18,802 nt of DNA from positions 1-18,802 of the forward strand of contig JADGJA010000435.1 in the NCBI GenBank assembly GCA_027596035.1, written 5' to 3'. Each line of letters opens with the position of its first letter. The first letter of the stretch is position 1. The notes under the pieces were generated by a model. The model was not told the origin of the DNA and made no database searches. It saw only the letters and a list, made by a program, of their open reading frames with translations. The translations under genes and the position numbers were made by a program. This stretch comes from Thoreauomyces humboldtii (lineage: Eukaryota > Chytridiomycota > Chytridiomycetes > Spizellomycetales > Powellomycetaceae). Below, in pieces: positions 495-1,988 of the stretch.

Positions 495-1714
495 ATGTCG
501 ATACCATTCTCGCAGCCCAGCACTCAGGCTCCCTGGTTGGCTGGCGGCTCCGCCTCTTCCGTCTCACCGACTCCCTTCGTCTTCGGAGGCACAAATTTCG
601 ACTTACCGCTGTTTCCCGACCTCGACGATTTCACATCGCTTCTCAACTCCGTGTCAGGAACAAACAACTTTTCCTCGCCTTCGATAACTACACCCCCTCC
701 TTCGGTCGCTGGTTCCCTTCCAGCGATGAGCGATGTGTCTGCTAGCGCAGACCCTCTCTCATTTCAAGATCTCGAAGCGTTGTTTGCGAGCGTTGATTCG
801 GCTCCGACAAGCAGCTCATCGCTGCTGTCCAGTCCGCTTGGAGGCTCGTTTCCTATGGAGGATTTCATATTCGCCGACCTCTTGAGCGCTCAGGAAGCCG
901 CTCCTTCTACCGCCGCCCCGTCATTGATAACGCCGCGGTCGATGGCAAGGGATCCAGGCGTTGCCAGCAGACAGAAACCGACACACTTGAACGGCCATCC
1001 CCTGAGTCCAATCTCCGCCGGCTCACATGACGAGGCTTCACATGACGAGTCAGCCCCCGTGGTTCAGAATAAGGACACTAAGCGGCGTAAACTTTCTGCT
1101 GAGGAGAAGGAGGCTCGAGCACGCGACCGTGCGATCCGCAATCGGCAAGCAGCACAAGATTCTCGAGACAAGAAACGAAAATACATCGATGACCTCGAAG
1201 CTTCAAACACGGAACTTGCCAACCACAACAAGCAACTCGTTGAACGACTCCAGTCGACCGAACAAACCAATATGACGCTCGCTTCGCGGCTTGAGCAGAT
1301 GGCAACGCAACTCGCAACCTTCCGGAAACGGTTCAAGACGACCAACACTCCCTCCGGCATCACCGACATGACAGATACTCTCACGCTTGGCGCACTCTCA
1401 TCCGACCCAGCAGCGGTCAGAAGACGCACTTCCCAGCACGTCACATCCATCCAGCACGGATCCACGTCAAGCGAGAACGGAGCACCTGTCAGCTACGTGA
1501 CACCCCTGCTTACGGAGATGAGCACGACGAAGAGATCCTCTTTGTCTGTGTCAAATCCGAACGCCGGGACGTCACACCCCCCCAGCCCTTCGACATCGAG
1601 GACTATCTCGACTTCGCCCCAGGCTCATCCGCTAGCCACGCTGGTCGTGACGACGCTTTTCAATTCCTTGGTCTTCCTGACCTCGGGAGCGAGAGCAGCG
1701 TCCGGTCTTGCTAG
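495..1714 (+). CDS. HAC1: HAC1/XBP1-type bZIP transcription factor, Ire1-spliced form
   Basis: This is the unfolded-protein-response activator: a nuclear bZIP factor inducing ER chaperone and ERAD genes. ATG at 495 opens a Ser/Pro-rich, partly acidic N-terminus. The basic region lies near residues 195-225 and includes RNRQAAQDSRDKKRK, matching N-x7-R (N216, R224). A leucine-zipper coiled coil follows to about residue 278. The RNR-AAQ-SRDKKR type of basic region is characteristic of fungal Hac1, Hxl1 and Cib1. The genomic frame does not stop after the zipper. A frame shift of 2 mod 3, obtained by removing a predicted Ire1 intron (best 1411-1454, 44 nt), enters a second frame open to TAG 1712-1714. 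It encodes an acidic tail containing DIEDYLDFA and FQFLGLPDLGSE, like an activation domain. The spliced product would be about 391 aa. Family assignment is strong; the exact 3' splice site is uncertain. Confidence 0.82.
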
Positions 1715-1988
1715 CGTTTTGACCTTGGGGTCCGAGTCGACTCGTCCCGTCGATGGTGTCGATGCCAACACCGCCCCTTTCCACACCGTCAAAAATCGTA
1801 CCTCTTCCGGAGCGGTAATCCCGTTGCGGGACCCCATCTTCACCCCACGAACGAGTACCATCGGTCTCACACCCCGCTTGGATCTTTATCTCTCCTCGCG
1901 AACCGCGTCCCGCTTGGACAAGTTTCCGATCCTGCAAAGGATCTGGGCAACTCCTCCCGCAGCTCTAGGGCTGATCTCGTCATTTTAG
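495..1988 (+). CDS. HAC1: HAC1/XBP1-type protein, unspliced reading frame
   Basis: Without Ire1 cleavage the same start reads through to TAG 1986-1988, giving 497 aa, so the unspliced product is longer than the spliced one. The first 305 residues, including the bZIP, are shared. The tail differs completely: Ser/Thr/Pro-rich, then a strongly hydrophobic stretch (LVVTTLFNSLVFL, 1641-1679), then about 100 Arg/Ser/Thr-rich residues. In animals unspliced XBP1u has a hydrophobic segment that brings its mRNA to the ER membrane, and a repressor role; as I recall, Ustilago Cib1 also has a longer unspliced form with repressor activity. Transfer of those roles here is inference. The open frame could be incidental. 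Confidence 0.55.
   Translation: MSIPFSQPSTQAPWLAGGSASSVSPTPFVFGGTNFDLPLFPDLDDFTSLLNSVSGTNNFSSPSITTPPPSVAGSLPAMSDVSASADPLSFQDLEALFASVDSAPTSSSSLLSSPLGGSFPMEDFIFADLLSAQEAAPSTAAPSLITPRSMARDPGVASRQKPTHLNGHPLSPISAGSHDEASHDESAPVVQNKDTKRRKLSAEEKEARARDRAIRNRQAAQDSRDKKRKYIDDLEASNTELANHNKQLVERLQSTEQTNMTLASRLEQMATQLATFRKRFKTTNTPSGITDMTDTLTLGALSSDPAAVRRRTSQHVTSIQHGSTSSENGAPVSYVTPLLTEMSTTKRSSLSVSNPNAGTSHPPSPSTSRTISTSPQAHPLATLVVTTLFNSLVFLTSGARAASGLASVLTLGSESTRPVDGVDANTAPFHTVKNRTSSGAVIPLRDPIFTPRTSTIGLTPRLDLYLSSRTASRLDKFPILQRIWATPPAALGLISSF
1401..1467 (+). other. Predicted Ire1 splice hairpins and unconventional intron (best model 1411-1454)
   Basis: At 1404-1418 the RNA can form a 4-bp stem GACC/GGUC closing a 7-nt loop CAGCAGC. 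This is exactly the Ire1 loop consensus CNG|CNGN with cleavage after position 1410. The stem extends past one C-A mismatch with C1402-G1420 and U1401-A1421. The candidate 3' site is CAG|CACG at 1452-1458, a 7-nt loop on a short AUC/GAU stem, cut after 1454. Between them GACG (1423-1426) can pair with CGUC (1439-1442). A 44-nt intron is 2 mod 3, as the frame change demands. Alternative cuts with the right phase follow 1436 (26 nt) or 1508 (98 nt), but neither sits in a 7-nt hairpin loop. The 5' site is well supported; the 3' site is less so, because its loop has C rather than G at the sixth position. Confidence 0.68.

Follow-up and report, generated by a model that had tools for sequence, protein, structure and literature searches.

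A bZIP gene of Thoreauomyces humboldtii with two overlapping coding-like frames and a candidate 44-nt Ire1 intron

The bZIP gene and its overlapping frames

The window analysed here is the whole 18,802-nt contig JADGJA010000435.1 of Thoreauomyces humboldtii, which corresponds to contig C374 in the sampled genome (20.7 Mb, 823 contigs). On its forward strand, the ORF list gives an open reading frame in frame 0 (495..1988), which encodes an unspliced product of 497 aa and contains a bZIP domain at aa 204-264 (1104..1286; PF00170, E 2.8e-8, above the family cut-off). About 41 codons beyond the end of the matched domain lies a 5' Ire1-type loop, followed by a predicted Ire1 intron of 44 nt (1411..1454, with putative boundaries) and by the coding part of a second exon (1455..1714), which is read in frame 2 and ends with a TAG stop at 1712-1714. 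As proposed in the preliminary description, removal of the 44 nt, which is 2 mod 3, reaches the acidic frame and joins the bZIP to an acidic tail in a protein of 391 aa. This acidic frame is open from 1325, the start of the translated stretch, to its stop, while the overlapping unspliced frame contains a hydrophobic segment, LATLVVTTLFNSLVFLTSG, at aa 380-398 (1632..1688; mean hydropathy 1.62).

Two short upstream ATG frames, 361-396 and 400-426, are found ahead of ATG 495 and might be uORFs if the leader is transcribed. No relatives of the gene were found in the genome contigs, viral contigs and plasmids searched, and the sole Rfam match in 1200-1800 at E≤10 was a snoU89-like one, on the opposite strand and far under the gathering score.

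Concerning the two frames, a codon-usage model was derived from 36 ORFs (19,129 codons) within 200 kb of this genome. Frame 0 is coding-like up to 1410 (55.2 bits) and beyond, the frame 2 score climbs from about 1470 onwards (12.3 bits at 1515-1604), and frame 1 is interrupted by nine stops in 495-1410 and five in 1455-1714. Compared with off-frame control windows, which overlap and derive from the 36 ORFs only, the 16.8 bits of frame 2 over 1457-1711 were matched by 20 of 16,069 windows at offset 2 and by none at offset 1, and the 7.4 bits of frame 0 over 1455-1709 by 30 and 42, respectively. For frame 0 past the acidic stop (1713-1985; 10.6 bits), 11 of 15,853 windows at offset 2 and 14 at offset 1 scored as high; as for its whole unspliced tail, 192 open codons with 17.8 bits, none of 12,217 windows did so at either offset.

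When the sequence was recoded with the frame-0 protein kept, frame 2 was open in 1315 of 20,000 cases and equally acidic in 4; when the acidic tail was kept instead, frame 0 was open in 2815 of 20,000 and equally hydrophobic in 31. It is improbable, in our estimation, that only frame 0 is translated, with the loops and the acidic frame due to chance and the gene not the Ire1 target of this genome: frame 0 is indeed open and coding-like to 1988, but the score and the acidity of frame 2 would then both be rare by-products of it.

A decayed copy of the gene, with stops and frameshifts, was found on another contig (C112:57055-57830; L042 1556-2331). Because the region from the bZIP to the intron has been lost there, this copy is silent on the stems. 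In a gapped alignment with small numbers, the N-terminal part shows an excess of substitutions at frame-0 third positions (33/85 vs. 31/173, p 0.0004), substitutions in the overlap (1583-1711) are scarce and evenly spread (17/111; 5/38, 7/37 and 5/36 by codon position), and those past the acidic stop (after 1715) amount to 50/159 (24/53, 10/53 and 16/53), with no frame-0 third-position excess. With the same reservations as to numbers and gaps, the substitution rate of the overlap differs from that of the N-terminus with p 0.054 and from that of the later part with p 0.003. The pattern in the overlap would fit two constrained frames and, being even, argues against translation of frame 0 alone, while the substitutions in the later part make it less likely that the final 90 residues of the unspliced tail are strongly constrained.

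A second frame could also be reached by -1 ribosomal frameshifting, or be the artefact of a one-base assembly error, both of which we hold to be hardly probable. Frame 2 is offset by -1 from frame 0, and there is a strong hairpin at 1497-1575; yet an in-frame X XXY YYZ heptamer is absent at 1395-1560. As for an assembly indel, frame 0 behind it would be random, which is at odds with its 192 open codons and their score, even if frame 0 past 1715 carries no third-position signal against the decayed copy.

Hairpins around the predicted intron

The loop scan placed a 5' hairpin, GACC[CAG|CAGC]GGUC, at 1404..1418, with the expected cut after G1410. In agreement with the preliminary description, GACC 1404-1407 and GGTC 1415-1418 close a 7-nt loop, CAGCAGC (1408-1414), whose letters fit the consensus. 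According to the passages of PMC549064 available, the loop rule comprises 7 nt, with C first, G third and sixth, and a G opening the 3' leg of the stem. The 5' loop meets the full CNGNNGN rule, with a 4-bp stem and a C-G closing pair (the yeast search described in the same passages required one stem pair more than these four), and is predicted with p 0.97 in all eight folding contexts. CNGCNG matches had been said to be confined, within 1330-1530, to 1408 and the overlapping 1411, and this holds even over 1300-1720.

The 3' hairpin, AUC[CAG|CACG]GAU (1449..1461), with the expected cut after G1454, is less regular. Its loop, CAGCACG (1452-1458), was correctly located in the preliminary description, as were its CNG|C motif and the resulting length of 44 nt; C1, G3, the 7-nt size and the closing pair all fit. 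The full CNG|CNGN consensus, in turn, does not hold for this site, since position 6 is C, so that the 7-nt CNGNNGN rule is broken, and the stem has just 3 bp. In the passages of PMC549064 available, G6 is described as essential for efficient cleavage by the Saccharomyces cerevisiae enzyme. No in-phase loop meeting the full rule was found in 1411-1712.

Both hairpins are predicted in seven contexts ranging from 101 to 2040 nt. They are enclosed by a 9-bp closing stem, whose 5' arm, CGCUUGGCG (1384..1392), pairs with its 3' arm, CGUCAAGCG (1465..1473), with p 0.94-1.00 in four contexts. The 3' loop has p 0.74 in the seven contexts with flanks and 0.12 in the isolated 1395-1470 segment, because the closing stem is present in the former and absent from the latter. 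Folding of 1395-1470, as had been suggested, consequently recovers the 5' loop (p 0.97) and not the 3' hairpin, for which the closing stem is needed. Between the two loops, the middle stem reported earlier (GACG 1423-1426 with CGTC 1439-1442; hairpin 1423..1442) is present as well, with p 0.96 in context vs. 0.17 in 1395-1470 alone. Its 3' part contains an alternative CAGCACG (1434-1440). The two CAGCACG copies, 1434-1440 and 1452-1458, are 18 nt apart and both in the phase of the acidic frame; they perhaps reflect a small duplication.

Ire1 might also cut at 1410/1411 and make its 3' cut elsewhere, after G1436 (26 nt), after G1508 (CUG|CUUA, 98 nt) or further, which we consider unlikely. CAGCACG at 1434 and CUGCUUA at 1506 are in the right phase, an intron of 26 nt is also found in human XBP1, and the loop at 1452 is itself imperfect; moreover, Ire1 enzymes of the relaxed type take other loops, as stated in the available text of PMC6037481 and PMC8104961. 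The sites at 1434 and 1506, however, have no 7-nt hairpin (stem 0), and within 1380-1480 the only 7-nt loops that exceed p 0.02 are those at 1408 and 1452.

It had also been claimed that neither intron boundary has GT or AG. The 5' end does lack GT, but the intron ends with ATCCAG, with AG at 1454. A spliceosomal intron that switches the frame, e.g., 1416-1471 (56 nt), 1416-1492 (77 nt) or 1440-1492 (53 nt), is nevertheless very improbable. The lengths of these GT...AG pairs are 2 mod 3 and CTGTCAG at 1492 would serve fairly well as an acceptor, whereas none of the six GT in 1300-1500 (GTTCAA, GTCAGA, GTCACA, GTCAAG, GTCAGC and GTGACA) corresponds to GTRNGT and the CTNAY branch motif is absent between 1398 and 1508. 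A donor profile built from 27 automatic intron calls was too noisy for a figure; it included donors starting with GTC.

In the second exon, a long imperfect hairpin (1497..1575) is predicted with p 0.99. The region 1488-1583 has a z of -5.5 vs. 60 dinucleotide shuffles, and the stability of this hairpin was equalled in none of 1000 frame-0 recodings and in 21 of 1000 frame-2 recodings.

The frequency with which such loops arise by chance was estimated from codon shuffles of 1290-1532 (20,000 per run). Since all classes of loop pairs were framed after the site had been seen, the shuffle figures are guides. A 5' CNGCNGN loop with a stem of at least 4 bp, together with an in-phase CNGC loop with a stem of at least 3 bp (class E), occurred in 1, 4 and 7 per 20,000 shuffles for three seeds, and in 0 of 20,000 with a pyrimidine-G closing pair at both loops. 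Other definitions gave 11 per 20,000 for any CNG on the 3' side (class A), 34 for a 5' CNGNNGN (class B; in a separate run, 2 with pyrimidine-G closing pairs at both loops), 73 for the loosest class (C), and 32 for two loops with G6 (class D), a class that the real sequence fails. With the loop positions fixed, both loops formed as CNG loops in 2 of 800 recodings, and a helix of 9 bp or more linking the two 33-nt flanks arose in 30 of 5000 shuffles. Over 400,000 nt of the same genome (20 loci, both strands), two class-E pairs were counted, none of them with the closing rule; among the 11 bZIP loci scanned, class E was found in the present gene and in that of C585, and with the closing rule in the present gene alone.

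On the other side, and in line with translation of frame 0 alone, a lone 5'-type loop is present in 0.9% of the codon shuffles and was seen 51 times in the 400,000 nt. The folding energy of 1380-1475 is ordinary, too, with 875 of 2000 synonymous recodings and 456 of 2000 permutations equally stable. A dinucleotide control over 1380-1476 (z -2.2; 13/500 as stable) was not counted as evidence.

Other bZIP genes, Ire1 and ligase

The basic region of the gene resembles Hac1, HacA and XBP1 sequences, but in an equal-length comparison those of two other bZIP genes, on C585 (L027 from 1945) and on C301 (L022 3264-3425, minus strand), are as near to them, and nearer to HacA. An apparent lead of the present gene in this comparison came partly from a longer stretch and was gone at equal lengths. 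This equal likeness, too, speaks for translation of frame 0 alone. Both other genes, which have HacA-like basic regions, nevertheless continue via GT...AG introns (GTAAGT...CAG and GTACGA...CAG) into a common transmembrane-like hydrophobic stretch, FSFAL..LPGFM.ST.H.GGHI.GKAYS. Because they share this segment after a GT...AG intron, they look like another bZIP type, which counts against the idea that frame 0 alone is used in the present gene; their sequences recall the membrane-bound ATF6/CREB3 class of bZIP factors. In the C585 gene, two CNGCNGN loops lie in phase with a spacing of 155 nt, 34 and 189 bases past the start of the bZIP match. The first of them lies within the basic region and the pyrimidine-G closing pair is absent at both, and the pair is probably due to chance.

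The genome holds both an Ire1 gene, truncated by a contig end, and a gene for a joining ligase of the Trl1 type. The former, on C715 (L031 1-3182, minus strand), comprises a PQQ-like luminal part, kinase pieces and a partial RNase, and ends with the contig inside the RNase domain, the first 73 of 127 RNase-family positions being present. A second piece of the RNase was not found at E≤10. The latter is a 768-aa stretch on C115, with a match to the RNA-ligase family of the Trl1 kind (E 1.3e-65).

In an alignment to the solved yeast enzyme, yeast E988 and K992 correspond to N and D in this Ire1 (numbering read with the available text of PMC8104961); the third specificity residue (1059) and the catalytic histidine lie past the contig end. 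The same text describes D/E at 992 as part of a pattern present in 175 of 230 Ire1s and linked to relaxed cleavage. Since N/D is part of this relaxed-specificity pattern, the enzyme may accept a loop that lacks G6.

Proposed mechanism and known Ire1 introns

Taken as a whole, the gene at 495-1988 is probably a HAC1/XBP1-type bZIP gene whose mRNA carries an Ire1 intron with an uncertain 3' end. The architecture (sequence, phase, predicted fold, two coding-like frames, and Ire1 and ligase genes in the same genome) fits the reading given in the preliminary description better than it fits the rivals tested, while the 3' loop without G6 and a basic region that is not distinctive weaken it. The 3' site is its weakest link, followed by the identity of the gene vis-à-vis those on C585 and C301.

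Under this reading, the two CAG|C hairpin loops of the folded mRNA would be enclosed by the 9-bp stem 1384-1392/1465-1473. ER stress would induce cleavage by Ire1 behind G1410 and, in the likeliest case, behind G1454; once the Trl1-type ligase had joined the cut ends, the 44-nt loss would bring the ribosome out of frame 0 and into frame 2. The bZIP would thereby exchange its unspliced tail of 192 residues, which includes the hydrophobic segment (497 aa) and may have a membrane or inhibitory role, for an acidic tail with DEHDEEILF and DIEDYLDF (391 aa), presumably with an activating role. In a more elaborate version, which we regard as unlikely in its entirety, the gene would be an XBP1-like fungal HAC1: the hydrophobic segment of the tail, overlapping the acidic frame, would tether the mRNA to the ER, a relaxed Ire1 would cut the 3' loop that lacks G6, and the hairpin at 1497-1575 would dock in the manner of the yeast 3' UTR element.

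If the mRNA is spliced as predicted, the set of Ire1 substrates would be extended by an intron of 44 nt and by a natural 3' site that lacks G6, and the strictness of Ire1 recognition beyond budding yeast would be put to the test. The overlap of the acidic and hydrophobic frames would, in addition, open the way to a direct test, in a fungus, of whether the unspliced protein has an XBP1u-like role.

The intron of Ustilago maydis cib1 measures 65 nt. Other Ire1 introns are reported, in the excerpts consulted, with lengths of 19, 20, 26, 56, 252 and 297 nt, to which a putative one of 379 nt in C. glabrata and those of some Candida relatives, from 152 to almost 850 nt, are added. The lengths of 19, 252 and 297 nt do not agree with 2 mod 3 as a general rule, which had been put forward in the preliminary description. 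None of 44 nt is described in the titles and abstracts searched; Hooks and Griffiths-Jones 2011, which lies outside this scope, may list relatives.

The present gene is probably a further example of the known Ire1-spliced bZIP mRNAs. In S. cerevisiae HAC1, as described in the available text of PMC549064 and PMC6116095, 7-nt CNG loops and a Trl1-type ligase are found as here, together with a tail swap of the kind predicted here, with an intron of 252 nt vs. the predicted 44 nt. Pairing between the HAC1 intron and the leader blocks translation, whereas a similar leader-intron pairing was rejected here, with 71 of 300 shuffled introns pairing as well as the real one. HAC1 also has a 3' UTR element, and the present gene a long hairpin in its second exon. 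Animal XBP1 (from general background and the available text of PMC8674358) resembles the present gene in its two 7-nt CNG loops, its short frame-shifting intron (predicted here) and the hydrophobic region of its unspliced frame, but its intron has 26 nt, its loops are of the CNG|CAGN type, whereas G6 is missing from the 3' loop here, and its ligase is RtcB, whereas a Trl1-type gene was found in the present genome. U. maydis cib1 likewise codes for a bZIP protein of the Hac1 type and carries an Ire1 intron (predicted in the present case), and an inhibitory role has been proposed for its unspliced protein (PMC6918084, PMC6988420 and PMC10688622, as far as their available text goes).

The closest in kind is HXL1 of the basidiomycete Cryptococcus neoformans, for which the comparison relies on the available text of PMC3154848. 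Both are bZIP genes with an Ire1 intron, a predicted one in the present gene, located just past the bZIP and with CAG at both borders, and the Ire1-dependent switch of the C-terminal tail known from HXL1, in which that text reports no yeast-type bipartite element in the 3' UTR, is predicted here. The HXL1 intron, the splicing of which has been demonstrated, is 56 nt long, vs. the predicted 44 nt; its spliced and unspliced proteins are of similar length (426 and 406 aa, respectively), whereas those of the present gene would be of 391 and 497 aa.
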